A stretch of 64,000 nucleotides of DNA from Hypomesus transpacificus. Its lineage: Eukaryota; Chordata; Actinopteri; Osmeriformes; Osmeridae. Of the stretch, positions 14,365-64,000 are shown piece after piece. Position 1 is the first letter of the stretch; each line of letters begins with the position of its first letter. The notes under the pieces were generated by a model, which was given only the letters and a program-made list of their open reading frames with translations, had not been told where the DNA came from and ran no database searches. The stretch spans positions 14,262,908-14,326,907 of the forward strand of contig NC_061061.1 in NCBI RefSeq assembly GCF_021917145.1, written 5' to 3'. A program made the position numbers and the translations under genes.

Positions 14365-15484
14365 CTACAATCTTCTTGTTTGTTTTACCTGGGACTGGGA
14401 GCAACAGTGCAAACGCACGTCATTGAGAGACGAGTCGTCCAGCCCATACTGGTACTCTTCCATCTTGGTTTCAATGCCACAGATGCCCCCATTACCACAT
14501 TCCTGGCTCCAGGTGCCGTACTCTCCCCACTCATTGCCGGTACCCTCCAGAACTGGGTTGCTGCTGCAGCGGAATTTGATGTTATTGACGGCAGTGTCGT
14601 CACCAAACATGCCCTGGTGTGGCTCCACACGCAGCTGGAAGGAGATGAGTGTTCCCCTGGGGCAATACTGAGGGCTCGACCAATCACCATAGCTGGAGAC
14701 GAGGAGTACAATGGGGAAGGAAGGGGGGAAAAGGTAAATGAGCTAAAAGAGTTCATGAGGGAGCATGGAACAGACAGAGGGAGCTCTTTTGATGAATTGC
14801 CGGGGATATATAGGTGTAGTTACTCAAGTTTCCTCAATTCTCATATCTTAACAACATTTTTACCCAAAAATTACATGATCAGACAGAATCCTGACTTGTA
14901 CCCTACATTTAATCTACTCACACAAGGCAGAAGGCTAAAGTTTACAAAGAAGTTTAACAAGTCCTTAAGAGCTAAAGTGTTATCTTACTATCCAGTGTGA
15001 GACTCGATTGTATAAAGGAAGCTCCTGTCCTCGGCTTTGGCACAAATGAGGCGAATGCCATTGAGGGAAGTGTCATCCAGAGCATATTGTTTAGGTTCCA
15101 CCTGAAAGAGAGTAGACAGACACATGCTAGCATGAAATTAACCCAAATGGTAGTGTGGGTTACTTCTATGCACAACTGTATTGATTCCAAAACGGAAAAA
15201 TAATCTAACCAAACTCTCTCAAACTCGCAATCTGTAAATTGTAGACACATATTACACATAGTTTTTACCCTCAGACTGAACCCAACAGCATAGAATGTGT
15301 CAGGGCACATCTCAGGCCATGTCCAATTCCCAAACTGCTCTCCATTGGACACGGTAAGCACAGATGAGTAGGGTCTGCTACTGTATGCCGTGCCTGCACG
15401 CTCTACGAACGTCTTCTCCCCAGATGCAGAGAGGCTAGGGGACAACGTAGCAAGGACCACAACAATTGGGAGAAAGATAGCCAT
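14365..15484 (-). CDS. vmo1: Vitelline membrane outer layer protein 1 homologue
   Basis: Three exons on the minus strand (15484..15269, 15101..14989, 14692..14365) join in frame with consensus splice sites to give 218 residues. The N terminus is a hydrophobic signal peptide (MAIFLPIVVVLATLSPSLS), so the product is secreted. The body shows the three-fold VMO1 repeat: GNWTWPEMCPDTFYAVGFSL, then ALDDTSLNGIRLIC, then GDWSSPQYCP with FGDDTAVNNIKFRCSS, then WGEYGTWSQEC and LDDSSLNDVRLHCC. Length and cysteine pattern agree with vertebrate VMO1 (about 200 residues, beta-prism fold). VMO1 is an egg-coat and mucosal secreted protein of uncertain biochemical role. The last five codons after HCCSQSQ extend beyond the usual end, and a GTAAAA donor there leaves open one further exon. 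It lies convergent with raftlin and upstream of brd2's 3' end. Confidence 0.88.
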
Positions 15485-18426
15485 GTTTAGAGTCTCAGCC
15501 TGAAGACACAGAAAGCCAACTGAGAACTGAAATCTCTTATAGTTTGGCCTGGCCTGATGTGGCCTCCACATTGTTATCTGTATGTTAATTATTTACAGTC
15601 TTGTGAACCAGTGTGGGTAGTAGAACAGATGGTCAGATACTGTAAATTGCCACATGTAGTCATAGACCTCTACTGCACCTTTATCCTGCATGCCTGTGCA
15701 TCAATGATTTTGTCTAGCCATGGTAGTAGTATAAATTTATGTTAAAGTTCCTATAAACACTATCTTGACTCAACTACTATGTGTACATTCATATGTTCAT
15801 GATGACCATGCAAATCCAGTTCAAAGTGGATTTTCATGTTCATCACAGCTTGGTTGCAGAAACAGCTATAACTATCAATATCTTACCTACCAAATAATAT
15901 GTTATTGCTAATGCACAATGAAAACACAGATCAAGATTGAAATGAAAGCTTCAACAGATCAAAGCTACTGAATACTGTGGAGAAATACATGACAATGTTT
16001 TATTGAGGAAAACTTTGAGGGAAATGAACCCTTAATTGATAACACAAAAACAAATATCTGTGTGTGTTACATTCCCACGGTCCTATTTATGCTTTAAATC
16101 TAGAAAAGTCATGTTTTTATTTTGGAATATATCACATAATTTGAATGGATATATTCATTAAATAATAAAGTCCTTAAATAACTTTTTTTTATTTATGCAG
16201 TGCTGTTGGGTAACATCTGAAATCATATGGCAGGCCAAACAGGTACTAGAAAAAAACTAAGTTATGTGGGAAGAACCTTTTATTTTCTTATATACATGGA
16301 TGACTGAAATGAAAGGATACTTTTAGAAAACTGTGACTGGCATCTTATCCTAATACTCTTTAAGGTTAATTGAGGAAAGCCTGAGCTTCTTATAACAAAC
16401 TCTCTTTATCCGTATAACACACTAATATACCGTTATGGTAAATAACAGTATTATTTAATGCAATTTCTGTCTCAGTAATTTAACGTGTTCCTTCTCTTCA
16501 CACCCCAGTCATTTTTAGGTGACTCAGGTGTCCAAAAGATCATTGTATTATGCTTCTTCCTTTCATACCTTACACATGGTGACGTCTTTATACCACCAGC
16601 CGCAGCCTAACCAGTCATAAAAATGAACCGCTGCCACCTACTGTACACACAAATATTAGCCTATGCGCTTCCTTTTTATGTAGAAAATCCTTAAGTGATT
16701 GAACTGGGGAGGGAGAAAACAGACAGGCCTGTGTTTAATTTGCTTCTGGGCTGCAGAGATCAAGTAAACAAGAACTCTTGTTTCATAGAAGAGGATTTTT
16801 TTCTTTTATTATACAGTTGTAAAATGAAAGGTATGTTTCTGAGGCAGCATTCCAGTCAACCAGGGGCTAACAATATCCATAACATGTTTGTAAAAAAACA
16901 AACGATAACTAGAAGTGTCACGTCTGAGGAGAAATATAGAATACAAAAGGAAAAGCAGGACAGGAAAAAATACTCACTGTTTGAACAAAGACTTTGACAT
17001 TCAGTATATTACATACAGTAGATTCTTTACAGATCGTTCAGTAACAGTTTGTGTACATCTACCATCTAGTGAATTTTCTTGGTTCAACTAAGAACCTCAA
17101 GTTGCTAAGATACATAAAATGTCCAAGGATTTCTAAATAATTAGAGACCAGAAGTATCATCTGCCAGAAATAAATGTCCTTTACAAAAATGAAGGTGCAA
17201 CAGAAAAGCTTACATCTCTTACATTCCAACAGCATTTGCAACTTCTAGAAGGTCAATGATGTATGTGTTACCCAGCCTGCTGTAACAACTGTTTAGTACA
17301 GGGCTATGCTACCATGAAATTTAGCATGACAAGAGTTGCTTACAAACAAAACAGCTAATCGTCATAGTGATTTCCAGTTCCAGGCTTGGCATGTCATGCT
17401 GTGGAAGTGGGTAAGTTTAACATGATTTTCTATTTGTTATTTATCAATAGCGACACATCCACGGTTAGTCCAAGTGTTTCAAAAACGTAATATGCTATTT
17501 GGTGAATCTGTCCGACAATATAACCCAAAGAACACATCTCGAAGTCTGACTCAAGGTTTTGTCTATATTGTAGTCACCACAAGCAGCCCACTTGTGCAGA
17601 AACTGCAATCCACACATTATGGAAATATGTTTAGACACATTTCCAACCCAATCAAACTGAACTTTATCTTCGACGACACCTTAATGAAATACAGGTTAGA
17701 AGGACAGCTCAGGTAGTTGCTTAAGAAATCAAAATAAACTCACTTGTGACTGCAGATCTAATACACGTAACTAGACAAAACACACCACCCAAAATTGACA
17801 TCTAGTACCTGTTTTTTGTTAGTTTTTTTTTCACTGTCATGGAAGGCCCCTTTGCCAATATAAACATATCAGGACGATGTCAGCAATATGGGAGGAAAAA
17901 GCTCAATCCAACCTTGAAAGCCAGCCAGACTTTACATCACAGTGCTTCCAACTTGCAATGTTTTTTCCAGGATCTCAGGGAAGCAATGAACCATGGAAGT
18001 GCTATACCGGGGGTCGAGGATTTGGATTTAGGATAAAGAGCATCTCACTACATCTTTTCACTTCCTGTCTCCCCTCTTTGGGGGATTTCCATAAAATTCT
18101 TCTTTATAAAAGAAACATAGATACATTTGTACAAGTATTTACACAGGTTAGAGAAGAGAATTATAGGAAAATCAAGGCATTTAGTGTTTTTGTTTTGCGT
18201 GTATACATGCTGGCCTTTGATCTCTCTTCCTCTGTCTTCACATACAAAGTCCACAATCCCCCCCCGCCCTGCTTTGAAATGGAGCGTTCCACCTGGGGTG
18301 TCTCGTCAGGGCTGCCCCCTTCCTGTCAACTCAAGGAGGGGGGGATACAACATTAGCCCTGTACCACCCATGTCCCTGAGTTCTTCTCTCCGGGTGCTTC
18401 TCTCTTGGCTGGTGGTGGCTGGTGGC
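15485..18426. other. vmo1 upstream region and probable brd2 3' UTR
   Basis: No coding exon is supported here. The left part would hold the vmo1 promoter (read leftwards); the right part next to the brd2 stop at 18427 would be brd2 3' UTR. Short ORFs lack domain similarity. Confidence 0.45.
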
Positions 18427-22899
<4,473 letters not shown>

Positions 22900-26663: not shown

Positions 26664-29600
26664 CTAAGAATTTCCAATTTCCATCCCCTCTTCTTTACGC
26701 TGAAAGCCAATGTTCTGTTTCCTCACCAATTCTGCATAGAACCCACCATTCTTCATGAGTTCATCATGGCTCCCTTCTTCATAGACTTCTCCCTCCTTGA
26801 GAACAACAATATGGCTGGCTTTCTCCACTGAGCTCATCTTATGGGCAATCAATAGCACTGTACAACGATTACTGTCCTTCAGCAGGGCTTGGTGCACCTA
26901 GGCAGAAAGAAAAAAACAGTAATGTGACAGTTTTGTTATGTAATCTTCAATAAGAAAGCGATGTGACAATGTAAAGAGTATTATGCCACAATACACAGTT
27001 TATAAGACTACATTAAAATGAATACTTTACCATGTGCTCGCTTTCGGTGTCCAGGTTACTGGTGGCGTCATCCAGCACCAGTACCCGAGGTTGTCTTATC
27101 AGAGCTCTGGCAATGGCAATTCGCTGCTTCTGTCCCCCTGACACCTGTCCCCCCTTCTCCCCAGCATCTGAGGAAGTACATCTATGAGTGCCCAAGCAAG
27201 TCCATTGTCCTTGTTTCTATCAGTGGTAAGTTGGTAAATTCAAATTAGCAAATGAATGAGGTTTGGGAACTAACCTGTGTCATAGCCATTGGGCAGTTCA
27301 GAAATGAATTTGTGGGCATTGGCTCGCTCTGCAGCACGGTGCATGTCTTCATCCGTCATGTCCTCACATCCATATTTGATGTTCTCTTTGACAGAACGGG
27401 CAAACAGCACTGGCTCTTGACTCACCACGCTGATCTGAGATGAGAAGGAGACATAAGTGAAATGATTGATGTTCTAAAGCATGGCCCATTCTCAGATAAA
27501 ACACAGATCGGTTACTAGCTACTTACTAGTTACTAGTAGCGCAGGTGCTTGTAAAAATGGTTCACAAGAAAAAAACAGTGGATGGCTCACACCTACACTG
27601 CAGACTTTGATCAATTTCCATACATGTACATCATAATGTAGTACACTATAGCTCACTTGAGAAGTATGTATCATTGTTTGACTACAGTTTAAAGCCTATA
27701 AAGACACATACCTTGTCATGTAAGTACTGGTCATTGTAGCTGTTTAGTGGCTCTCCATCTAGCAGAATCATTCCTTCCTGGGGTTGGTAAAACCTTTCCA
27801 GAAGACTGACACAGGTGCTTTTTCCTGCACCAGACAGACCCACCAGAGCAGTAATCTTGCCTGGTTTCAGCTCCAGAGACAGATTCTGAGATAGATATTA
27901 GAGATAGAAGAGCGAGAGAAAGAGGGAGAGAGACACAGATGGAAAGGGTTCCAGAATGAAGTTATTGGAGGAATTGTTTTGAGTTATGAATTGAAAAGTG
28001 TTTCAACACAACATTATAATGAGTCTTTAAACATAGACACCTTGAGTGTCGTTTTGTCATTTTTTTCTTTGTCTTTGTCAGAATAAGCAAATGTGACGTT
28101 CTTGAATTCCACATGGCCCTTAAGTGTTTTGGGGGCCAAAGACCCTTCTGGAGGAACTTGGGGCTTTCTGTCCATGTACTCAAATATCTCCTCAGATGCA
28201 CCAATTGCTTGCTTCACGTGTGGATAGTATGACATCAAAACCTAGAGAATTTAGGTTAAAGGTTAAGTTCAAGTTAAACATAATGACTTCAAGAGAGATA
28301 TAAACGATTAAACGTCATAGCCATACCTCCACAGCAGAAGAAAACTGGAGCTCATACAGAACGAAAGACACCAAGTTCCCACTGCTTACGTCCCCTCTCG
28401 TTACCAGCATTCCACCATAGTACAGGATACTGACTTTAAGTGCCAGGCTAGACATCTGGACACATACATTTTTGGGAAAGAGAAAACGCTTCCCATTAAT
28501 ATTTCTTATAATGCAACATACAAGTTCCCTTAACACGCATGCACACACACACAAAAACACCCACAGTATATCGTTTATATTTGTTCAGTGAAAAAATAAA
28601 GTAACCTTGCAAGCGGAGACTCACACTATTGGTCCAGGTGGAAGCTGCATAGGCAGCAGCTTCCTTTTTGTTGAGAGCGTACGTGTCCTCCAAGCTTTTT
28701 TTGTATCTTTCTGTTTCCCCTTCCTCATTGGCAAAGCTCCTCACTGTCTTGATGGATGAGAATGTTTCAGTGGCAACATGATTGGCCTTGGCTAGAGACT
28801 CTTGAACCTTTTTGGAAAGTGCCTGAAGCAAAAACAAGATACACATCAAGGTTATGATGCAGCTGAGTAATTTATTCTGATCCTGATAGACAGTATGAGA
28901 GGTGCATCCCATTGTTTCTCTTTGATATTTTTCAACAAGTACGCATTGGACATAAAATTTGGCATCAAATCCCCGTACCTGGTGGAACTTTCCTGATATC
29001 TTTGGAATGACAAGGATGATGGGGAGTCCCATGGCAGTGAAAAGGGACAGCTTCCAGGAGAGATTGAGCATGAAGCCAAAGAGGAAAATAATCCGGGCAA
29101 AATACCACATAAGCAAGCTCAATTTCTCACTCAAAGATTCACTCATCGTGTTCGTGTCCGTGGTGATGCGTGACACTATCACACCTAAAACACAGATTGG
29201 AGGGAGTTAGTGTTCCACTTCACAAGAGCGTACAATTTTTCTTAGCAATTCTTTTGTTTGACATTCCTACATGACATTGTGAAACCTTTTTTTAAAAATA
29301 CTCTAAAAATACATGTAAAAAAGTGGTGCGAAAAATGCTACTCACCTGTTTTATTACTATCAAAGAATGCAATCTCTTGTTTTAGAACAGACTGAAAGAC
29401 CAAGCCCTGGATAGAGGTGTGTATAAGGCTCATGGTGATATTGTAGATGAGGTCACACACAAACTCACAAACGGCACTGTAAGGCAAAGACCAGTGTATT
29501 ACTTCTATATAATGACAAGAAGTGAATGAATAATGATAAACATGGATGAACATGAATGTTACTACATTATTAAACTGTAGCCTACTATAATAAAAATAAT

Positions 29601-30540
29601 AATTTCAAGAGGAAGCTTACCTGGAGATGGTGATGACTGTCATAATTGTGATGGCATAAGAAAAGGCTTCAGGCTCATCTTTATTCATAATCCAGTCTGT
29701 CATACGGCCAGTGTAATGGGGAATCGCCATCTCACCTTAAAGACAAAGATGAACAGTCGTACTCTCAGATCTGGTTTCCCCTGACAAAGTTGACAGTCTT
29801 TACTAGACTAAGTAGAGAATTATTACCAAGTGACGAGACGACCACAAGAAAGAGCACCCCTCCAAAACGTATCACGTAGGGCTTCATGTATCCCAGCAGC
29901 CTCTGCAGCGAGGACCCAGTCTTTTCAGGTTCCTTAGTGATCTTACTGGATCGAGTCGGGATGTAGCGCGTCCAATATAACCAGGCCACAACTGTCACGC
30001 CATAGCTCTGTAAAAGCTGCCCAACAAAGATTTTGTTTTAGTTTCTTTATCAAAAGCATTGGTTGTTCATTTTCACACTGGTTATTACTCTCTGATTAAT
30101 AATGCAAAATAATACATATAACACAAAATGTTAGACGACTTTAGGTGTACTGTCTTATCTTAATTGTATATGGTTACAAACAGCAGTGAAATTATAAACA
30201 ATAGCAAACTTGTATTTACCCCCTGCCATGAATGCCATCCCCATAGCTGATCCAGGGTGGAAACTCCAAATGTCCAGAGAAGGCTAATGTAGACTGGGTA
30301 GAGGGAGCAAAGTACTCCTATAGTCTGGACTCCCTCCAGGCTGCTCATCCATGGTAGGGTCCCAGGGTAGGTAGCGGTGAGAAAGAGGAAGAGGCAGGCA
30401 CGGAGAAGACCTCCACCCCACAGGGTGATGAAGGGGTGCGGGAGGAGGAGTGGGGAAAGGTGGCACATACCGATCGCCCTCACCGCACACATATCCACAA
30501 ACAGATACAGGACTGGCGAGAACATACTCATTTTCTGCAT
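26664..30540 (-). CDS. tap1: Antigen peptide transporter TAP1 (ABCB2)
   Basis: Twelve exons on the minus strand: 30540..30220, 30016..29827, 29735..29621, 29476..29346, 29184..28979, 28822..28625, 28455..28327, 28241..28041, 27885..27712, 27434..27275, 27167..27031, 26897..26664; phases agree and give 731 residues. The membrane part has TAP1-specific sequence ([38 protein letters not shown]). The nucleotide-binding domain shows Walker [10 protein letters not shown] (about 513-521), Q-loop Gln561, signature VSGGQ (617-621), Walker [10 protein letters not shown] with Asp642 in place of the catalytic Glu, and H-loop His673. TAP1 pairs with TAP2 in the ER membrane and pumps cytosolic peptides to MHC class I. 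The Asp is a TAP1 feature and helps separate it from TAP2. It is divergent from the Notch-like gene, with about 2 kb between starts. Confidence 0.95.
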
Positions 30541-30952
30541 CCCAACTGTTTCTACATTAAGAAAGAAGGGAAAATTATCAAATGACCAGAGAACAATGAG
30601 ATAGCTTGAAAACTAACTACTTTCACTTTCACATTTGACACTAACTGTACCAGTAGAACAGTGATTGTGGTTATCAAAGTATTACATTAACTCTAAGAAT
30701 GTATCTATAATGTTGAAAACGACGTCATTTACAATCGGCCTATGTATTTCGTAGGTTAGCTACTCTAGCTACCGTGAGATTTGAATCCAAGTTTACCTGT
30801 GTTTTTGTACACTCAACCTTGAGCTACCGGAATATGGATTATCTTCCAGAGTTCAAATCTTCCATGCAAATACTTCAGAATTGGCTTTAATCTGCACCTA
30901 AATAAAAAATAAGGTGCTGCGGCTGCCTTTCAAAGGGCTGTGTTGTATCGAA

Positions 30953-31402: not shown

Positions 31403-31546
31403 GGCTGGGTTTCCCAGATTCGTTAAGAAGCTCTTGACAATAAGTGCTTCTTAGGAGCGTTCTAAGAGCGTTATAGAGCGTTCTTGGAACGCTCTTAAGA
31501 AGCTCTTAGCGTTGAGAGCTTCTTAACGAATCTGGGAAACCCGGCC
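31403..31546. mobile_element. Palindromic MITE
   Basis: The ends GGCTGGGTTTCCCAGATTCG and CGAATCTGGGAAACCCGGCC are inverted repeats that continue inward through TTAAGAAGCTCTT-type sequence, so the 144-bp unit folds into a long hairpin. Similar bases TATTATT flank both sides and are a probable target duplication. This gene-free palindrome resembles a small non-autonomous DNA transposon of a kind common in fish genomes. Confidence 0.7.
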
Positions 31547-32526: not shown

Positions 32527-35500
32527 ATGCTAGTGCTGTGGATGGCCATTCTGCTGGCTTTAATCAGGATGTGTGCAGGTGAGTATTAAATCCATCTGAT
32601 AAAATGTTTGACAGATGTGAGATGGAGGAATTTTATCCTCAAAAGAAAAAAAATCTCCAATTCGTATTCATCGTCTTCTCTCTTCTCATCGTCTATCTGG
32701 TCTCCAATGCCTAATCGACCTGTTGCATAAAATTACATTATATCTATTGAACTTTCCATATACTATACACATTAGACACAAATTATTTGTACATTATATG
32801 GCAATTATTTGAAAAGAGTATTTGAAGTAAACAATTGTCTGTCTGAATGTCCTTTCCTTTTAAACAAAACAGCTGAAGGGCAAATAATGGTGCAAATGAA
32901 AAATTCTGGTTAGAATCAGGATGACTAATTTGATAGTGTTAAGTAGGACTAATGTGAAATGTACATTTTTTATATTTGTTGACAGTTGTTTAGTGTCAGT
33001 TGTTTCCATGTATTTCATACTTTTTGTTCTGATGTTCTATTGTAACATGCAGACTCAGAACCATTTAATTATCATGGTTTTAATGTGACCTTCGTGAAGG
33101 GCCTATCTTTTAAATGAACAGAATGGCTTTTATAAGTAGTCTTAGACTAAGCTACAATATGTTTGATTCCAGCTCCATTGTGCAATCTGTCAGTGTTATG
33201 ATTTCATTGTGAGGAATACACCTGCCAAACCCATTGTCCCTCTCCATTAAATTCCTCATCACCATGGCAATAACCTTCAACCTCCATCGCTTTCCAGTTC
33301 ACGCCATTTCCTGTTACTATTCGCTTCTCCTGGAAACTTCCTGTTTGTTACAGGCTTATTTCCTGCTCTCTTAACAGTTTATGCAAAAGGATACCGTTTT
33401 CATGGCTTTAGCTTTGTCTACACGTTTTAATGAATGCTTGCTGATACATTACCACGTATAATAATGTGGCTATGAGGAAACTAAATGTGCATGCAGCACC
33501 AATTTACAAACTTTGGGAATTTAAAAACGCGATGTCACCCACAGCAGCATCACCTGGAGACCCATGGGGCCAGTGTCCCACCACCAGACAGTGCAAGGCC
33601 AAGTTTGCAGACGGATCATGTGACAAGGAGTGCACAGAACCTGAGTGTCTGATGGATGGCTTTGACTGTCTGAAGGACCAAGGCCAATGCAAGTAAGATA
33701 CTCTTAACTCATTCTCTCTCAAAATGGATTCCTTGAACTGCTTGTGATGAAATCCCTATGATACTATTGACCTTAAAATTGCCTTTCTTGGCATTTTTGT
33801 GTGCCCTCCCAGTCCAGGCCATATCCAGTATTGCCGCGACCACTATGCCAACCAACACTGTGAGCAGGGCTGTGACAGCGCCCCCTGTGGCTGGGACGGG
33901 AGTGATTGCTTTAGACACCAGAGCCCTAAGTGGGCTAAAGGCACCCTTGTGCTCCACACGCGGGTCCCGTTGCAACATGGCACCTTCTCCAACAGCTCCT
34001 TTCTGTGGGCTCTCAGTATTCTGCTTAAAACCTCCCTTAAACTGCGAGGCTCAATGTCCCTTGACTCCAGCAAGGACCTCCTGAACTTTGACCCCCAGCA
34101 TCTTGCTGAACTGTTGGCGCAAGTCGCGTCAAATGATGCAAATGGGTAGGTATATACAAAAACACACAAAAAAAAACGATTTTTGTGAAAGCCCGAGCAC
34201 TGCCACACTCCACTAACGCAGATTATAATCTACTATATGAATCATAAGAATCCAAAAATCAAGCAGGGCATAATGATAGCCCTCCTTCCCATTTCAATAA
34301 CGCTCCCCACCTCCTACTCCAACAGATCTGTGTTATTCCTCCAAGTGGACAACAGGCCGTGCTCCCGCCATGCTCCCGCTACCTGTTTCTTGCACGCCAC
34401 AGAAGCAGCCAGTTTTCTGCGCGCTGTGATGTCACTGAACCGTGCGTCCCTCCCCTTCCCCCCAGACCTCCAGGCCATTGTAAGTGTGAGGGGGCTCCGA
34501 GAGGAAATAGGAGGAAGGGAGGAGGACAAGGTTGAACAGGAAACTGGTAGGTCTTTGTGTGCTGTTGTTACAGGAATTAGAACGTCTAGGAAATTTGATT
34601 TGGATCAACAGTACACTTACATTAGAAAAATTCAGATAAAACAATGTTTGCAAGAGAGACATTGCAAAGATCTCTCCTAATCACCTCTGTTCTCCCCACT
34701 TGTCCAGTAGAAGCTACACCCTCATGGCTGTGGGCTGTGATCGGTGTTGCGGTAGGTCTGACGCTGGCATTGGCCTTGGCGGTTGTCTTGGTGACCAGAA
34801 AGGTAAGAAGGAGTCGAACAGAGAGGGAGGTGGGAGAGAGGGTGAGGCACAGATCCACCGTCACCGACAACAGTGAGGGCGGGGCCAAAACTTGGGCACA
34901 GCACACACCTCATCGTGAGCGAAGGGGCAGAGCGGGGAGGGAGAAAGACAGGAACGGGATGAAGAAGAAGAAGAAAGCTAAGGAGGCAGAGAAGAAGAGA
35001 AGGAGGGAGCCGTTGGGGGAGGACGCCATTCGAATGCGGTAAGCAAATGTGGAGATCAAATCTAATCAGTCTCAATTCACACTGAATCTCGCTCAGTGAG
35101 TGTTTAATTTATATATTACCTAACATGACACACTGTACACTCTTCTTTCAGACCACTCAAAAGGAACCTGGACATTGGCAGTGACACTGACTTTACCCAG
35201 AGTTCCATGGAGGACATCAATGCCAGATGTTCCACACGCCAGGAGGATCCTTCTATCTGTGATCACAGAAGCATGGAGCAGAAACACTTCAGGGTCACTC
35301 CCAGCCAATCACAAAGCCCTAGGCCTATACAACGTATAAACATTTCCTGTTTATAGTGAATGTATCAATAGACTATTCATTTCATCCCCCTGTATTCCTT
35401 CAATGGTATGCATTACGGCATGATGTCATCATATATTTCAGCTCCTCCAAGAGGATGGGAGAGAAATGCTGTCCCTCCACTTCTGAGTCCTCCCAATCAG

Positions 35501-37848
35501 GTGAGCTCTCCAGTCTTACCCAGTCTTGATACTTATCCTACGTGAGTACAACTTTGGAATAGTGTTACAGACTAGGTTGGGCATGTATCTTTTAGAATCA
35601 GAATCAGGCATGTATCTTTTAGAATCAGAATCAGAATCAGGCATGTATCTTTTAGAATCAGAATCAGAATAAAGGTGGCTTGTGCGTAGTGCAATAGGTG
35701 TCAGATGGACTTAAAAATTGTAAATTTTACCAATACCTGGCCTATTGTTAGAGTTAAGGTACTCGACATTCACTGTGGATACGCCTTTACCAGTCAGCTC
35801 CTGTCCAGTGGTGTGGTCCTGATGGGTCGGTGGTCCTTATTCGGGCAGTGCGGAGTGGTCTCGATCGAGTGGTCCTTGAGCTGCTGCGGGCTGGGGTGCC
35901 GGTTAACAACACGGACCATACTGGTAATGCCTTCCCCACAACATTGTATAATGATAACACAAAATCGCAATCTCCCCATGTATAGAGAGGACGACTCATT
36001 TACTGCATCCATTCACACAAGATGACAGATATCCCAGATGAGTCAACATATACAGTATACAGAGTATAATATTGTGTCATGGAAGCGTTAATGTGCTTTT
36101 GAGAAGTCGTACATTGTAAGACTGCTCTATACTTTGACACTTAAGGGGATGAGTAACTGGTGTAACTTACCCATCTCTCTCACATCCCTTCTTGTGTCCC
36201 GTCTTTTCTCTTCCCTCTTCTTCCATCTCTTCAGCACCCCTGCTGCCCCTTTCTGATGCAGAACAAAGTTAATGAGTGCTGAGGCAGTGTGGATGTACCA
36301 TATTAACCCCGCTCGCTTCCCCCCCCCCCTCCCCTGTCTCTCTTTCTCTCCCATTCTCGCTCTCTTTCTCTGTTATTATATCTCTCTTTATCAGTCTCTA
36401 GATTTGTCTCTCTTTCCTGGCTGATTCACTTGTCTTTCACCCTAATTTGCATCCCTGTCAGAATCGCTCCATTGTTCCCTCAGCATTTTTCACCCTCTGG
36501 GCTTGATCTCTGTTGTATAATGTTTGTTCACTGGCTGACTTACCAGTAGTCCCCCCTCTAATCTCTGTACCAACCTCCCTCCTTCTTTCCCTCACATCCC
36601 TCTAAATGCACTTTATCACTCAGGGAGATCAGCCCTCCACTGGGCATGCTCAGTAAACCACCTCTCTCTAACAAGAACCCTCACTCGTTATGGGGCAGCA
36701 GTGGACCTGCAAGACAACAAGGTACCCAAATGATTTATTTTATTTTAAAATGTATTGCGGAAACTGTCCCTAATTATCCCAACAATAGTCACTACTGGAA
36801 TGTAATTGTAGAGTTTAGGCCCCTCCCACTCTGGCAGTGCCACATTGTGATCTGTTGGGGCTACTCTCATCTTCTACCAGGGGGAGACACCTCTATTTCT
36901 CGCCGCCCTTCACGGTTGCTACGATACTGCCAGGTTTCTTCTCCTCAACGGGGCCAATCAGGAATTGCATGATCGAAGAGGGCGTCGCCCACTGGATGTT
37001 GCCCGAGAGGGAATGCATCACCAGGTTTTGGAGCTCCTATTGGCTCACAGAGTTCAGAGAGGACCTATTCCGATTGATCCATCCAATGAGATGTTGTGGG
37101 ATGAGCGTGGCCTCATGTACTCCCCCTGGCCCACTTCCCAGGGCGTACCTGGGAGGAGTTCCTCTTTCTCCGGGGTCATAGAACAACGATATATGACTCC
37201 ACCTCCACCAAGGTAAACCATCTATCTTGTTATATTTTATCTATCAGGAGCAAGCCAATTATTATGTACACACCCATTACAATCTTTGATTGAGTAATCT
37301 ATGCGATTGAAAATGCTTATTTCTTCTTTGACAGTAATTGGTCTATGGGCAGAGTACAGTGTCCCTCCCCCCAGAATTGGCGGCCACAGCTCAACCAATC
37401 AGCAACTGCATTGGTCACTCCAAGAATCATGGGTCGTCCACCTCGGCCAATCAGCACCCTGCAGGAAGTGACCTCAGAAGCAGAGGACGAAGACAGAGAA
37501 AGAGCACAGGAAGTTCCTAGAGCAGCCACCCCCCACTTTTTATTACCCCAGCCTGCTCCTCGACAACGGTCATTCTCCTGTACCCAGCATGCATTGCAGC
37601 GTCGCATTAGTACCCACCAACCTGCACCACCCCTTAATGTCGTCCACCTTGACACATCTAATGAGCCAATAGAGAGAGTGATAGTGGTCGCTCCCACAGA
37701 TGCACCCACACAATCAGACCGCAGATCAAAAACTGATAATAGTGACATCACAAGTAAGGCCGAGGCAGCAAGCTCCACAAATGTAGAGCAGAGAAGCAAA
37801 AGTGAGAAATTAAATAACATGGCTGACTCTACTCAAACAGCACTATAA
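32527..37848 (+). CDS. Reduced Notch-family receptor lacking EGF repeats
   Basis: Eleven exons (32527..32578, 33545..33692, 33813..34145, 34326..34546, 34708..35038, 35152..35333, 35442..35500, 35809..35923, 36624..36721, 36881..37212, 37335..37848) keep one frame with matching phases: 794 residues. Seen in order: a signal peptide (MLVLWMAILLALIRMCA), two Lin12-Notch repeats (Cys28-59 and 66-99, six cysteines each), a NOD region (GTLVLHTRVP), NODP (VLFLQVDNRPC), one membrane segment (about 258-280) followed by RKVRR, a basic block KKRRREPLGED matching the Notch post-RAM sequence, a short ankyrin block (about 444-570, with GRSALHWACSVNH and GETPLFLAALHG) and a 170-residue tail. No EGF repeat is present, LNR-A is missing, no furin-type RxxR is seen between NOD and NODP, and the RAM WFP motif is not seen. 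Location beside pbx2 and gpsm3 suggests descent from NOTCH4. Family is certain; function is open. Confidence 0.85.
35578..35668 (+). repeat. Short tandem repeat in Notch-like intron
   Basis: The unit GGCATGTATCTTTTAGAATC plus a variable number of AGAATC/AGAATCA copies is repeated about three times in a row. It lies in the intron between the seventh and eighth coding exons. Confidence 0.8.
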
Positions 37849-38663: not shown

Positions 38664-45112
<6,449 letters not shown>

Positions 45113-48438: not shown

Positions 48439-50396
48439 ATGGAAGTGGATGTTACCATGGAATCGTCAGAACGTGAAGTTGCAGTTTCTGAAGAGCAACA
48501 CTTGGAGCCTCTTATAATTATTGAAGAGGGGGACATTACTGAGAACACAGTCGTTGGAGGACCAGAGACCATGACTGAAAACATGTGTGATGATGAAGAT
48601 AGTATACAGGAGGCTGGACAAGTAGGAAAACTCAGCAGTAATAGTGAAGAGGATGGAGACCCTGGAGAATACCCATGTCAGGTTAAACAAGAGTACAACA
48701 TAGAAGAAACCAATAGATATTCAGTAACAAACAAAGAAGAAAAAGCATATCCAGGTTCTGACAAAGTAGAGGAACCAGGTGGTGGAAGAACAGAAGAAAC
48801 TGAGAACAACCAAGAGATTATTAAAAAAGAAACAGATGGAGAGACAGCAGATAGAGATCACAAGAGACAAAGTCAGGTAGGAATCCGGACGGAAGAAATA
48901 CAAGCCCAAAATACTGAAGAAGACCCCAAGTTGCACATAGAAACATCAACACAGGCTCTACAAGTGGATACAAACAACGTTTTACCATCTGACCGGCCAC
49001 TGAATGAGATGTTCAGCACGGTAGACACTCAAAAGCAGGTTAGAAAAACCTACTGTATTTTTTGTGTAGAGCCAGTAAATGCTCTTGTGTCAACATGTCA
49101 CAATCACATTGATTCAATTTGCGAGTCTTTTGAGGGAAAAAGGTTTTATCTTTGTTACCGTCCCCAAAATATTAAATTGATTGCAATGAATCTTTGACAT
49201 TCTAAACCACCCCCAACCTGAATCTGGAGGAAGATCAGGGGTGATTATATTGTACCACTATGTGGGTGTATCAGAAACTATGCCACAATAAACCAAGAGG
49301 AGAAAATGATACAATTCTATAGCCACAATTTCTTCCTCTTTTTTTCCCTCCTCTGACTTTGTCAGGCTCGACGATTAACCCCTGATTTCCCAGACACACT
49401 TTACGAGCTGCTGTGCACATTGCAAGAAGGAAGACGTCTGAATGACCAGCGCTGCTCTTTCAACATGGAGATAGGGGGGAGGAGGAGGAGGTGCCACTCT
49501 GAACCCAGTGTCACCATGCCAACCAACAGAGGTGACAGGAAGGCTCTGTTTGTGACAATTGTCTAATGAGAATTGCCATTTGAGGACACAAACTGATCTG
49601 TTATGGTTTCTATAACACACGTTTCGTTCCAACAAAAGTAAACTTCTATTAGTTTAGTTTGTAATTTTTTGTGTGAAGATTGTTGAAAACCAACACTTAT
49701 ATTGAGATAATGTTTACACTAGGTTTATTGGCGTGATACTGAAATTCAGATGATCCGCGTGGAGCTTATCTCACACTCATCTAACTCCTTTCCCCTCTCC
49801 ATTTTCAACAGTGGTTTTTTCCTCCATGACTTCACTGCAGAAAGAGGAGTTCTTTGAGTTTGTTGCTACATCGCAGGCACGTCGACTGGACGACCAGCGG
49901 GCAGAGTCATTAAAAACCCCCCCTCCTAAACCCAAAGCTAACAGGATACGGAGCAGTATAAAACTCTCCATAGTGAGAAAACCTCCCCCAGTAGCAGTAC
50001 CCAAGGAGGACTTGTACAACATGATTCTCAGCTCACAAGTATGTGGTTTTAACTGTGATAAGCCTATGGAATTTTTGGGGGCGTCAATTTCCATTGCATA
50101 CCCTTATGTCTTTTGGCTTAACCTCACCACTTTCTCCTCCTGTAGGGTTAGGGCTTTCATGGTGGCTTAAATCATCTCATGTGCTGTTAACTTGAAAAGC
50201 TAAGTTATGTGGGTGTTACTTTTGGTGTAAAGTCTACCCTCTGTGGTCCTTTCAGGCACAGGGCAGACTGGAGGAGCAGCGAAGTGCCGCCCCAGGTCCC
50301 ATGGATGACGAGGACTTTTTCTCTTTACTGCTGAGGGTTCAGGGGGGACGCATGGACGAGCAGAGGACTGAGCTTTCCACAGCTGTCAGTACCTGA
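48439..50396 (+). CDS. gpsm3: G-protein signalling modulator with four GoLoco motifs (GPSM3-like)
   Basis: Four coding exons (48439..49038, 49366..49531, 49812..50038, 50256..50396) keep frame and give 377 residues. Exon 1 encodes about 200 acidic, low-complexity residues with two SUMO-consensus-like sites (VKQE, IKKE) and no recognisable fold. The rest carries four GoLoco motifs ending in the Gly/Arg-x-Asp/Glu-Gln-Arg core: about 210-229 (LYELLCTLQEGRRLNDQR), 267-285 (FFEFVATSQARRLDDQR), 321-340 (LYNMILSSQAQGRLEEQR) and 350-368 (FFSLLLRVQGGRMDEQR). GoLoco motifs bind GDP-loaded Galpha-i and block nucleotide release. There are no TPR repeats, unlike GPSM1/2, and GPSM3 sits next to NOTCH4 and PBX2 in human, which supports this name. 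Human GPSM3 is far shorter (about 160 residues), so the long N-terminal exon is unusual. The ATG follows an acceptor AG by 14 bases. Confidence 0.85.
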
Positions 50397-58730: not shown

Positions 58731-61700
58731 TCAAAAAAGAGTTCTGACCAGTCTCCGCCCCTTGTCTTTGATTCGAGGAAAGGTGGCACTGGTCTCAGTG
58801 CTTATTGGATGAGAGCTTAATGGGGTAGTACCCCCTTTTCTTCTAAGTAGGAAGTCCACACTTGAGGAAGTCATAGCGTAGAAGACGTTTCCTGTGGCAG
58901 GAATAACTAACTCTGTAGGGTATACAAATATGCAGAGCATGCAAATGAATAGCTGTGAACTGTTTACAACCAACATACATTAAGTCTTGCAGCTTCAGAT
59001 CATTTCCTCACCTTTTCCCTCAGGAAGTAGTTGAATAAGCTCATATTTGGAGGCCTCTTTACGGTCCTGATTGTTCTTCTCAAGGGCAGAACTGATGACA
59101 GTGGGGGTCTTGTCATTGCTTGACACCTGAGCAGACAATGAGACAGCTTTACTCCTACTTGTTATATTCCGAATGCATTACTGTTCCCCCTAAGGAAAAT
59201 TGTTTTATTACTGCCAGATGCTTAACAATTTAAGACAGAAAATCCTTTACTTAAGTTAATGTCAGTTTTCTTGTCCCCCCACCATAATGCTTCGATATAA
59301 ATTCCCATCATGTAAATCCATCCGTATCCTGATGATTCGCATATCTGGCCCCGACCCTTGATGGTTATAGGTGGGATTGTTGCCACAGGAGACGGATCGA
59401 CGATGTGATTTGACAGTGTTAGGTGATGGGGTCAATGCAGCAGAGGGGGTGGGTTCAGTAGATGAAGGGGAGGAGTCCACATCAAGACAGGAAACCGAAG
59501 GGGATTTCATATGCTGCAACATCAACAACAACAATAATGATAACTACAAAGCTTCTCCGCCAAGGAGAATGCAAAAGACAAGAATACACATAAGAGCATT
59601 AAAGGACCTTTGTCGTTCCATAGCATGTGTTTTTGCAAGCCCTTTAATGATTGATGAACACAAGGTTGTGCTTGTTAGTAAAATCAAAAATAAAATAAAA
59701 TAAAATCAAAATAACATACTACCATACACACAATAAACAATACAGTAGCTTAACTACTGTATTGCAGTTAAGCTACAATACAGTAGCTTAACTACAATAC
59801 ATCCTGTGCTATATATAACATATATAGCACAGGATGACATGCACACAAACATTTTGGCACATCATTAGATCATTACCTTTGCAAGCTTGGACAGTAAGTG
59901 ATTGACAGGAGAGGGAAAGTCAAACATACTTTCACTGTCACCAGCCAGACTGGTTCTTGAGGAACTTAAGCTGTATAAAAGATGGACAGAGTTACTCATG
60001 CACAATTTGTATACTCTATTGAATGTATGTTTGATACTTAGAGGTTTAATCTAACTCGTATCAATATTATTTGTATTTGCAGTATTTACTCTGGGCACTG
60101 AGTGACGATGACAGTGGGGGTAGGGCCACGACTTGGACTAGGTTCACTTGGGGCTTCGATCTTATTGGAGAGTCTATAACTGCAGCACACATATCGAAAC
60201 ACAAGTTTAAAAAAATATTTTTGCATGCATATACCAATATAAGAGTAAAAAAAAGATATGGTATACTGTATTATTGTGCTCCTATTCCATTGTACCTTTC
60301 TTCTTCAGTTAGTGTCGGAACACTGTTGTACCACTGTAGGAAGGCGTCGTCAGAGATGAAGACACAGTTTTTACAGGAAGATTGGAGGAGTCGAATTTGA
60401 GCTAAAACTTCAAATTCCTGTAAGAAACAAAACCACTTATCTCTCTCTCTCTCTACATATATATATATATATATGCACATACAGTATATAAACATAAATG
60501 CTTATAGCATAAATGGCTTAAACATTCTGTGAAAGTATATATCAAAGTAAAACAACAGCGTAAAAATACAGTACAGTACACTGCTTCTGCTTTTAACTTG
60601 AGTTAATGACCCTACAAGGAGTGCTGAATTCCTTCCCTTACGAAACAATGCAATACTTACACGTCTCCGTTTGTCAAAGTTGATATAGCCATTCTGAAAG
60701 GGAGAAACAGGAAGTTTTTGTGTAATTTTGTCATGTCGCAAATGGGCATGTCACAAATGAGTTTCACTTGAAATTATGATTGCAGTGGTTTGACCCATTG
60801 GCAAGAGGACACATCCCAAAGATTCACCTCTAGCTTGTCTTTGACTGCTGTGTCCAACATAGTGAGGTCAGTCAGGAAGATGCCCAAGTAGGGCACTGTG
60901 CCCTGGGCACTGGACTGAAAGAGAAGAAAAAGCAGGAGCATTGTCAGCACCACTGAACATTAATGCCTGTATTCTTTATATCATGGTAATGTCTTAATTA
61001 GACCAAACAGTCTACCAATCGAATACAAATCACTATTTCAAAACAATATGGATATGAGAGCCCTCATATAAACATTGAGATTATTAATGAATAATAACAA
61101 AGATTTTTGTGCTATTTGTCCTGCTTATCAACCACTTGGCCATATTTTGCACTTACTAGACATGCCAAGGATCACTGCGATTCACTTTTGATTAGCACTA
61201 ATGTACATTGTAATTTTTAAGGATTATTTTTTATTTTTTATGTTGTGCATATTAATTCGGCTGTAACAGTGCCATTTCTTACCAGGGATCAATAATAGTA
61301 GAATTGTAGTTTGTCACACATTCCCATATTGTTCTGTAACACTTCTGTTACAAGATATGTGTGACATTAAATTCTCTTACCCCTATATGTCTTCTGTTGT
61401 TCATTTTGCTGTCCACATTGGCAAACTTCGAAGTGCCCTCCTAGAAAAGACACAAACTAACAGTGGAAATTCCTCTTCCATTCAAAAAGGGTTTACCACA
61501 TTGACTTTGACTATACGGTGTATAAAAATAGCATCGGCTGAAAAATCCTGACAAATTATGCTGTATACTTCTTGTATTGAATGCCTTACACGTTTTCAAC
61601 CTTGTCTGGTATAGTTACCCATTTCAGGCATAATGAGCTAGGAAGTGGTTTGCTCTGGCGATTATCAAAGCCCAACAGAAGATGTCGGAGAAGCTTTCTC

Positions 61701-64000
61701 CGACATCAAAGCTCTGATTGAAGTTTTCAAATGAAAGCAACAGCAAATGCTTTTGGGAATTTGCGAATGTCTATGGCTAAAATTGATGCTAATGCATAAG
61801 TATTGATGCCTGCATAGTTTAATAGTGAGTCCAAATTATGTAAATCCTTCTTATTCCCCCAACCCCCACTCACAATGCATCCTGAACACAATACATATTT
61901 AAAGAAACTGCTGTTTTGTGTGACAGATTTGTGGCAGCTATACAGAACCAGATTAAACCTATTCTGGGCCTAAACAGCATGTTCACTCTGATGTAGATAC
62001 TCTTTAAAAAAAGGACTTTCACTTCTGTAAGTTTTTATTGAGTACAGACAAGTACAAATTTTGCATGAACTAAATCGTTTTTGGAAACCTGTCTCCATAA
62101 AAGTCCCTCACCTCTTTGAGCAGCTCTCTGCTGTGGGAGAAATTGTCCTTCTCTGAGAAAATGTCTGACAGCTCCTCGTATCTCCTCACGGTCTCCCTGT
62201 CAGGGTCACGTGACAAAGACGATGAGTGATGGGTGTGAAAAGGCTTGGCCGACATTCTTTCCAAGAGACACAACATCCAGATCAAAACTACAATGAAAAT
62301 GTTAATGAAATATTATACTTGTCTGTGTCTAGCCAGGTGCGCCTCAGTCTGTGTATGGGGTTACTCTGCAGTGCACAAACAATGGCATACAAGGACGAAA
62401 AGTTTTTCCTTGCTCGGCACTCCTGTTCAAAATAAAAATACATGCCCACACCCACACATTATGTACTACACACAAACCTGCAGGTCAATGGGTTTGATGG
62501 GCATTGAATTACTCTTACTGTCTGACATGTTCAATGATGCACAGTTATAAAGATACTTCTTTCTTAAAAAAAAAGTTGCTGGGGGTGGGGGGGTCAGGAC
62601 AGTGATTTGGAAACAAAATGTATAGGAAAATAGTTTACATTCTTGAATGCAAAAATTACTAAATAATATATTTCCATATTGCTCCGGAGAATGAAGGCTG
62701 TGTCTTTTCAAATAACGAATGCTAAATAAATACTTTCTGTCCACCAGTGCCAATCTGTCAAACTTCATTTCTCATAAGACATATTTGTCATATCGCACAG
62801 ATTACATATTGAATTATTTAAACGATCCCAGTGTCCTTTGGCTTTTTGTGTTTGACCCACTAACCTCCGCCACACTGATCCATTGCTCAAGGACACGAGC
62901 TCTCTGCCAGCTGCGTAGCTGCGTGGACCACAAGCAGGACGCCGACACAGTATTGGCAAGCTTGTTAAACTGCCGTACCGTGGCCCGAACAGACCAACAC
63001 ACTCCCTCCCGTCCCTTCTTATCTCTTTGGGACCACAGTGAACCCAGGCAGTGGTACGGAACCAGACGGACAAACAACTCCTGGCAGAAGGAGGGAGGCG
63101 AAGCAGAGAGGTAGGCAAAGAGAGATCGACCGCAGGAGAGAATATGGGTTGAGGGGATGAAATTGTTTTTTACGTGTAACTTTGTAATTGACATGAACAA
63201 GGCAAATGAAGATCATCATTTTTTAATTTCACGAGGGGAGATTCAATGTTTTCAATGTAACAGGGTTTCGGCTCACAGTCTCTATCTTTGTAAGCTGCTC
63301 AGCAATCAGCCCAGCTGGAAACACCAGTATGTTGGTGGCATCAAACTTGGAGGGGTCAGGAGGGGGAATCCGGGAGATAGTTTTATCTGAAGAGACATAC
63401 AGTACAACGAGACATTGACATTAATAAATCAAACTGAAAATGCTAGTAAGGCTTATGAAAGAGACATTCAGAGCGGTCAGCCACCACTAAAGACTAAGAG
63501 TGTGGAATATTGGCTTTATCTCAGTGTTATGGTCATATGCTTTGTTCAAGGGCTGAATATTTGTAACGGTATGCACTTCAAAGCCCACTTTCATTCTTGA
63601 TTAGTAAACGTGTAGGCTACCTACAAGACAATGCGAATATGGATACTCAAAATGGACACGGACCTGTTTGGCTGTCAGAAAGCAGAGCCTTCTCACTGAG
63701 CTCCTCTGCAATCTTGAGGAGGCGACTGCGGAGATCTGAGGCGGAAAAGTCCTGGGGGAGGAGAGGGGCTAGGCGCAGCAGGTGGGAGGGCTCCCCCAAA
63801 GAGAGGAAATCCTCGGGGTACTCCGAAAGCCAAGTGTTAAACACCATGCACACCGCTCTGAGGAGAACAGGAAGGAAGAGAAGAGGAACAAGATAGACAG
63901 AGATGTGAGGAACAATTTGTTAACAGATACATGGCTGGAGATATGTAGTACTTTGAAAGCCTCACCTGTTGAAAGTTTGCCTGGTCTGACTTCTTGTGCT
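58731..64000 (-). CDS. rgl2: Ral guanine nucleotide dissociation stimulator-like 2, 3' part (partial)
   Basis: On the minus strand exons 64000..63966 (cut by the window edge), 63857..63664, 63386..63277, 63080..62865, 62422..62319, 62196..62112, 61440..61381, 60914..60828, 60693..60661, 60417..60296, 60173..60090, 59970..59877, 59513..59283, 59126..59012 and 58912..58731 join in frame. In order: the end of the RasGEF N-terminal (REM) region ([12 protein letters not shown]), the CDC25-type RasGEF domain ([76 protein letters not shown]), a Ser/Pro linker, and a Ras-association domain ([20 protein letters not shown] to [14 protein letters not shown]). RGL proteins are Ras effectors that activate Ral GTPases. 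Family is certain; the RGL2 name rests on its place in the MHC block (human RGL2 lies at 6p21.3). The 5' exons lie beyond the right edge. Confidence 0.88.
59800..59836. other. 16-bp hairpin in rgl2 intron
   Basis: CATCCTGTGCTATATA (59800-59815) is the exact reverse complement of 59821-59836 with a 5-base loop. Immediately left, TACAGTAGCTTAACTAC-type bases repeat directly and inverted (59742-59797). This is a small palindromic cluster without coding content. Confidence 0.6.
60439..60474. repeat. (CT)n/(TA)n microsatellite
   Basis: A short TC run followed by an AT dinucleotide run in an rgl2 intron. Confidence 0.85.

Follow-up and report, generated by a model that had tools for sequence, protein, structure and literature searches.

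notchl, a Notch-family gene without EGF repeats in Hypomesus transpacificus, and its most likely descent from NOTCH4

The DNA analysed here, hereafter the window, is a 64,000-nucleotide (nt) stretch of the Hypomesus transpacificus genome (NC_061061.1, positions 14,262,908 to 14,326,907, forward strand). At positions 32527-37848 on the + strand it carries notchl, a gene of the Notch receptor family whose product has no EGF repeats. A preliminary interpretation made from the letters alone (the sequence-only reading) had proposed eleven exons joined in one open frame. The ends of that model and its junction 32578/33545 are confirmed by AG/GT borders and compatible phases, although the stop-free product is 799 residues long instead of the 794 first given.

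Architecture of the notchl locus

In a Pfam scan the 799-residue protein matches LNR (in two stretches), NODP and ankyrin-repeat families, whereas EGF is not found. The domains are ordered as a signal-peptide-like start, two LNRs, HD/NODP, a membrane helix, ankyrin repeats and a tail; an HD/NODP region adjoining the LNRs and a single membrane helix are present, as in a Notch receptor. For comparison, the exons were set against two notch1-like loci (contigs C158 and C22) and a notch3-like one (C17) elsewhere in this genome, all three named by eye.

32527..32578, + strand: exon 1, predicted signal-peptide-like start (MLVLWMAILLALIRMCA) ending in phase 1, with aligned counterparts in relatives
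33545..33692, + strand: exon 2, LNR-B, equivalent to the 3' part of the canonical LNR-A/B exon
33813..34145, + strand: exon 3, LNR-C and the first half of HD, without the S1 furin motif
34326..34546, + strand: exon 4, NODP/second half of HD, with conserved C190 and C198
34708..35038, + strand: exon 5, membrane helix, basic block and REPLGED motif, without the phi-W-phi-P RAM motif
35152..35333, + strand: exon 6, conserved linker PLKRNLDIGSDTDFTQSSMEDIN
35442..35500, + strand: exon 7, short linker exon (PPRGWERN)
35794..35923, + strand: exon 8, ankyrin repeat 4 (with tblastn, matched at E 0.08 only)
36624..36721, + strand: exon 9, ankyrin repeat 5, equivalent to the canonical ANK5 exon
36881..37212, + strand: exon 10, ankyrin repeats 6-7 and start of the tail
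37335..37848, + strand: exon 11, tail, in which the blocks RPISTLQEVTSEAE and RQRSFSCTQHAL are conserved, and stop codon

The putative signal peptide of about 20 residues is followed directly by LNR-B, and the phases fit the direct splice to an LNR exon that had been proposed. An in-frame ATG near 33532, noticed by eye, was set aside as an alternative start because the relatives retain the signal peptide.

Five features of a Notch receptor fail here: the EGF array, the set of three LNRs (LNR-B and LNR-C are the two modules left), the S1 site, the RAM motif and the set of seven ankyrin repeats (repeats 4-7 are present). The match to the Notch1 negative regulatory region (NRR), chain 3eto_A, starts at chain residue 40, which we read as LNR-B, and LNR-A is therefore also missing. 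The losses beyond the EGF array thus comprise LNR-A, ankyrin repeats 1-3, the RAM motif and the S1 site. The sequence-only reading had rightly listed two LNRs, NOD/NODP, a membrane segment and ankyrin repeats, but had overlooked these additional losses.

The missing parts were sought elsewhere in the window using an EGF hidden Markov model (HMM) that was built from sturgeon, bichir, Anolis and seal proteins and run on all six frames. No EGF exon was found near the gene. The best match in the window (E 0.00095, 16.6 bits) is fragmentary, covering 17 residues at 17700-17771, approximately 15 kb from notchl and beyond tap1 and brd2; the next match has an E value of 0.05. As a positive control, the same model detects 20 EGFs in 8.5 kb of the notch1-like locus of the same genome. 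The Pfam and HMM scans thus bear out the earlier claim that EGF repeats are absent, and rule out EGF exons concealed upstream or in intron 1. Similarly, tblastn with peptides of the canonical LNR-A and ANK1-3 exons gave matches at E <0.05 only to the modelled LNR-B/C and ANK6 exons, which rules out such exons concealed in introns; no counterpart of the canonical exon spanning ANK1 to mid ANK3 was found at the gene. The window sequence contains no N.

A genome search with the intracellular part yielded one strong locus, notchl itself, with other Notch loci matching at 40-43%, and a second copy was accordingly rejected. The exon-10 piece of this search starts 42 bases inside the preceding intron, and the TGA reported for it lies in that intronic part; the frame of exon 10 proper is uninterrupted. 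LNR matches above the cut-off, among the best candidates scored, lie on C158, C22, C17, C2 (the notchl contig) and C7. No notch2 was recognised among these contigs, and the C7 matches, which look GNPTAB-like by eye, were rejected as a notchl paralogue.

Conservation across ray-finned fishes

A homology search against 5.8 billion proteins (E <=0.001, 7996 candidates scored) recovered 169 relatives, of which the best 120 were listed. The closest among the matches listed is from Osmerus eperlanus (P0001; 98% identity over 100% of the query), and the notchl frame is therefore not a product of chance. Most listed relatives are named 'neurogenic locus notch homolog protein 1' and some 'notchl', so that the existing database entry guessed in the sequence-only reading does exist; judged by these relatives, the gene is teleost notchl under its usual name of 'notch homolog protein 1'. 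The Sarotherodon galilaeus relative (P0030) is labelled 'methionyl aminopeptidase' at its source, an evident naming error.

By genus name, the listed relatives include bony-tongues (Scleropages, Arapaima), Megalops, Anguilla, Albula, herring kin, carps, characins, catfishes, salmon, pike, cod and many spiny-rayed fish. A second, longer-length search (123 relatives, best 120 listed) added Paramormyrops (P0121) and the bowfin Amia (P0122, 794 residues), and also gave proteins from the sturgeon Acipenser ruthenus (P0124, 1445 residues) and the bichir Polypterus senegalus (P0125, 1719 residues). Of the best 120 of 169 relatives, 107 are 760-820 residues long, 8 are shorter and 5 longer.

The same layout that had been proposed as worth seeking in other fish was found in the listed relatives. 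The EGF HMM detects no domain in 124 proteins (the window protein and P0001-P0123). Of 123 relatives, 108 have the LNR-B start motif in their first 35 residues, 5 have it at residues 36-60 and 4 beyond residue 60; the 6 unmatched cases are fragments, one skipped exon or variant letters. A RAM pattern is absent from the window protein and occurs in one of the 123 relatives, inside its signal peptide, and no S1 pattern follows LNR-C in any of the 119 relatives, out of 123, that were scorable. The relative from Danio aesculapii (P0096, 784 residues) has the same layout. Two relatives, P0011 and P0047, lie on contigs tagged 'lgn' at source (2989 and 3191 nt) that contain whole frames of 789 and 799 residues, as would be expected of spliced RNA. 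From this comparison of proteins, the EGF-less layout is not peculiar to Hypomesus transpacificus but is kept across bony fishes.

Constraint was evaluated in an alignment of 110 of 121 rows, the other 11 having lengths outside 740-830 residues. Conservation is 98% or higher at twelve LNR cysteines and at two in HD, which upholds the earlier view that the intact frame and its cysteines reflect selection. The mean majority share reaches 93% over residues 446-577, 89% in the tail block at 681-720 and 88% at 340-372, but falls to 56% for the signal peptide and to 59% over the final 79 residues. Conservation is also strong in the basic REPLGED block that precedes the ankyrin repeats, and the smelt and Scleropages proteins have 88% of residues 446-577 in common.

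In a tree from a short alignment, with poorly supported inner order, the ankyrin stem branch leading to neopterygians measures 0.85 changes per site, whereas end branches within the group are at most 0.19; the LNR-HD stem branch (0.54) does not exceed the longest tips in length. Ankyrin identity is 84% between smelt and bowfin and 54% between smelt and sturgeon. Among 129 ankyrin columns, 29 are fixed in 8 neopterygian rows and fixed to another letter in 6 Notch1/3 rows. On these branch lengths, a burst of change along the neopterygian stem rebuilt the ankyrin block, which has stayed nearly constant since.

An AlphaFold2 model of the Osmerus eperlanus protein (P0001, 38 alignment rows) has a mean predicted local distance difference test score (pLDDT) of 59.1 and a predicted template-modelling score (pTM) of 0.36, with residues 451-570, where ANK4-7 lies, at pLDDT 92-97 and the HD region at 59-88. 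Foldseek matches this model to Notch NRRs (template-modelling score about 0.6 on target, root-mean-square deviation about 6-8) and to Notch ankyrin domains. The latter include 1ymp ('Repeats 4 Through 7 Preserve an Ankyrin Fold'), in which the same four repeats of Notch1 fold as a unit (template-modelling score 0.88 on target, 44% identity), and the matches also include 6py8 chains F (named Notch1) and K (no name given).

Intermediate-like forms and probable relationship to NOTCH4

The sturgeon and bichir proteins, which are notch1-like, resemble notchl in several respects: LNR-B and LNR-C are their sole LNRs, neither an S1 nor a RAM pattern occurs, the tail blocks are alike and the ankyrin domains are truncated (by eye, ANK3-7 in bichir and ANK4-7 in sturgeon). 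Unlike notchl, they retain EGF repeats, 21 in bichir and 14 in sturgeon. The same HMM counts 34 and 30 in the Notch1 controls from mole-rat and turtle, 18 in a partial turtle Notch3, and 26, 25 and 23 in NOTCH4 from seal, platypus and Anolis. Repeats resembling EGF11-12 are present in both fish proteins (52% identity to mole-rat Notch1 in bichir and 58% in sturgeon). Separately from the question of notchl itself, P0124 and P0125 may be decoy-like receptors, given that EGF repeats of the ligand-binding type are kept and the RAM motif and first ankyrin repeats are gone.

These two proteins look like step-wise intermediates in the dismantling of a Notch receptor. The S1 pattern is found in 4 of 5 Notch1/3 controls, in none of three tetrapod NOTCH4 proteins and in neither the sturgeon nor the bichir protein; the RAM motif is present in all three tetrapod NOTCH4 proteins, whose LNR-A looks degenerate by eye. 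The simplest order, which draws on database gene models and on one bowfin, one sturgeon and one bichir protein, would be loss of S1, then of LNR-A, RAM and the first ankyrin repeats, and then of the EGF repeats before the bowfin-teleost split. The neopterygian date for this last step comes from the one bowfin protein together with teleosts, no gar being among the matches listed.

The genes surrounding notchl bear on its ancestry:

18864..21215, - strand: brd2-like, BET and bromodomain exons (Pfam; gene name by eye)
26667..30612, - strand: tap1-like ABC transporter, ABC_membrane in 28499-29206 (extent and name by eye; the open reading frame (ORF) at 26667-26897 matches no family)
41691..42936, - strand: pbx2-like, PBC domain exons (Pfam; gene name by eye)
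49754..50167, + strand: gpsm3-like, one GoLoco motif (Pfam; gene name by eye)

These assignments are at family level, from a Pfam scan of ten ORFs of which two match no family and one has a sub-cut-off match only; a search of PDB with the pbx exon gave no match. At that level PBC, GoLoco, BET and ABC genes share the window with notchl, in agreement with the NOTCH4-like neighbourhood recognised in the sequence-only reading and with the place beside PBX2 and GPSM3 in the MHC region that is expected of a NOTCH4 orthologue. PBX2, GPSM3 and NOTCH4 stand in a row in a table of human genes (PMC1309616; this and the other papers cited by PMC number are represented here by excerpts).

Trees were computed unrooted, from 19 of 22 chosen rows (P0163, P0165 and P0145 were dropped) and with Notch2 not included. 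The tree with all domains unites notchl, bichir and sturgeon in one clade (support 100/100). In it, notchl and NOTCH4 are separated from Notch1/3 with support of 95/92, on long branches, and constraining notchl to Notch1 or to Notch3 costs 6.9 log units (p-AU, from the approximately unbiased test, 0.041 each). An unrooted, long-branched tree of the ankyrin part gives the same 95/92 for notchl with NOTCH4. A search with the bichir protein found 41 matches, the nearest non-fish Notch being platypus NOTCH4. Tetrapod NOTCH4 resembles notchl in neighbouring gene families, in absence of the S1 pattern, in an LNR-A that is degenerate by eye (missing in fish notchl) and, with all domains or the ankyrin part but not with LNR-HD, in tree position, and arterial expression is common to mammalian Notch4 (PMC8833884) and fish notchl (PMC9338088). 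It differs in having 23-26 EGFs and a RAM motif in the three proteins scanned, and ankyrin domains that look full by eye.

Several observations weigh against NOTCH4 ancestry and favour the alternative that notchl is a fast-evolving copy of Notch1 or Notch3. Automatic names mostly point to Notch 1, identity over the LNR-HD part is 37-39% to Notch1 versus 28-32% to NOTCH4, and the tree of this part (44/0) does not resolve the NOTCH4 grouping; of the two parts for which a tree comparison with tetrapod NOTCH4 had been suggested earlier, only the ankyrin part groups notchl with NOTCH4. In addition, the turtle Notch1 (P0127) lacks the S1 pattern and is thus an imperfect control, and the case for NOTCH4 combines neighbours matched at family level with a tree that, having long branches and no Notch2, is by itself not proof. 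A Notch1/3 copy is nonetheless improbable: it would leave the PBC and GoLoco neighbours, which match the human order PBX2, GPSM3, NOTCH4 (PMC1309616), the 95/92 grouping with p-AU of 0.041 for the alternatives, and the shared absence of the S1 pattern from notchl and NOTCH4 to be accounted for. We conclude that notchl is most likely the ray-finned-fish descendant of NOTCH4, as supported by its place and moderately by the tree.

This placement differs from the published picture. A NOTCH4 orthologue was given as absent from the zebrafish assembly and from Fugu (PMC1309616, in the excerpt), and Notch4 as found only in mammals, with a debated origin (PMC10277265, likewise in excerpt); the lizard NOTCH4 record P0155 speaks against the latter statement. 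Although NOTCH4 is described there as absent or restricted to mammals, a likely fish descendant would thus lie beside pbx2-like and GoLoco genes. Zebrafish notchl, which has the same gene name and was not itself among the matches listed (the Danio aesculapii relative has the same layout), was called 'previously uncharacterized' when in situ hybridisation signal was reported in the dorsal aorta and intersegmental vessels (PMC9338088), and it is counted among arterial genes (PMC10961373); in these excerpts it serves as an expression marker only. No description of the EGF-less layout was found in open-licence PubMed Central papers. notchl is therefore a real, conserved gene with database entries, whose layout and history we did not find in print among such papers.

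Possible roles of a Notch protein without ligand-binding repeats

Conservation of notchl raises the question of what role a Notch protein can have once ligand binding is lost, which could be addressed in zebrafish arteries. The ligand-binding part is gone and the stripped form is kept across bony fishes, and thus notchl probably serves a purpose other than receiving ordinary Notch signals. A ligand-independent or regulatory Notch product, as first suggested, is plausible.

We favour, with about even confidence, the reading that notchl is a dismantled NOTCH4 acting as a ligand-blind arterial membrane protein, which would be cleaved without ligand and modulate transcription outside the RAM-RBPJ contact. 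S1, LNR-A, RAM and the first ankyrin repeats would have been lost ahead of the EGF repeats (absent in bowfin and teleosts), leaving a type I membrane protein of arterial endothelium predicted to be unable to bind Delta or Jagged. In Notch1 the LNR-A/B linker is a plug protecting S2, and removal of LNR-A, the linker and LNR-B facilitates ligand-independent activation (PMC3145759 and work cited in it, in excerpt). The notchl sequence begins after the position of this plug. Because the LNR-A/B plug that shields S2 in Notch1 is absent, the stub regulatory region would probably be cut by ADAM and then by gamma-secretase without ligand. The released ANK4-7 and tail, with the basic block, might then modulate transcription by way of partners that bypass the standard RAM-RBPJ contact, and would probably dampen or fine-tune the output of Notch1. 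NRARP-like ankyrin inhibitors, also considered for comparison, bind RBPJ and the Notch intracellular domain (NICD) via an extension of the ankyrin stack.

Standard activation of RBPJ by notchl is unlikely, given that there is no RAM motif, no ANK1-3 and a shift in 29 of 129 ankyrin columns, and for this reason ligand-independent release of a modulator is favoured. A further account, which we hold tentatively and with somewhat less than even confidence, is that NOTCH4 on the neopterygian stem lost its ectodomain, had ANK4-7 rebuilt for a new partner and was then frozen, turning from a receptor into a non-receptor regulator that tunes Notch1 in the same cell. If this were true, teleost arteries would carry a ligand-blind Notch relative acting on Notch1 intracellularly.

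Release by cleavage has evidence against it. In simulations the HD remains stable, and lifting of the LNRs alone is not likely to open S2 sufficiently (PMC3145759, in excerpt). In the AlphaFold2 model, LNR-C and the juxtamembrane region have low confidence and the tail lies below pLDDT 50, as do 391 of 800 residues in total. The same doubt about S2 opening from lost LNR contacts would suit a membrane-tethered scaffold, in which the uncut protein holds partners at the arterial endothelial membrane through ANK4-7 and its serine-rich tail blocks and has no nuclear role. The absence of the RAM motif fits this alternative, as does the conservation of tail blocks containing basic residues and serines (RQRSFS, GRSASFS), which rank with the best-conserved stretches of the protein. 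We nevertheless regard it as rather unlikely, as the basic REPLGED block before the ankyrin repeats is strongly conserved too, and HD, the membrane helix and two LNRs are kept, as might be expected of proteins processed at S2 and S3.

Less likely again, at about the probability of a Notch1/3 origin, is that notchl is a constitutively active canonical Notch, whose intracellular domain, released for want of ligand binding and LNR-A, activates RBPJ targets in arteries. The facilitated activation of Notch1 noted above is consistent with such a role, and in mouse, RBP-J transcription is activated by the intracellular domain of Notch4, whose ectodomain inhibits Notch1 (PMC12375735, in excerpt). However, the single RAM match in 123 relatives, within a signal peptide, the absence of ANK1-3 and the 29 ankyrin columns fixed differently from Notch1/3 all count against it. 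A decaying pseudogene or missing-sequence artefact, suggested by nothing but the absence of expected parts, has a nearly negligible probability in view of the intact frame, the absence of N from the window, the layout shared by the listed relatives and the whole frames in the two 'lgn' contigs, and a pseudogene was rejected on the relatives and their conservation.

Some additional elements were recorded elsewhere in the window. Between tap1 and notchl, positions 31403-31546 form an inverted repeat of 68 nt, its arms 87% complementary and 8 nt apart, that by eye resembles a miniature inverted-repeat transposable element (MITE). Short ORFs at 39246-39547 (+ strand) look THAP-domain-like by eye and are possibly a transposon remnant. 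Two ORFs at 59265-59543 and 62073-62312 (- strand) look RGL2-like (RalGDS-like) by eye, with no Pfam match for the first and a sub-cut-off match for the second, and an ORF at 14975-15592 (- strand) matches the vitelline membrane outer layer (VOMI) domain in Pfam.

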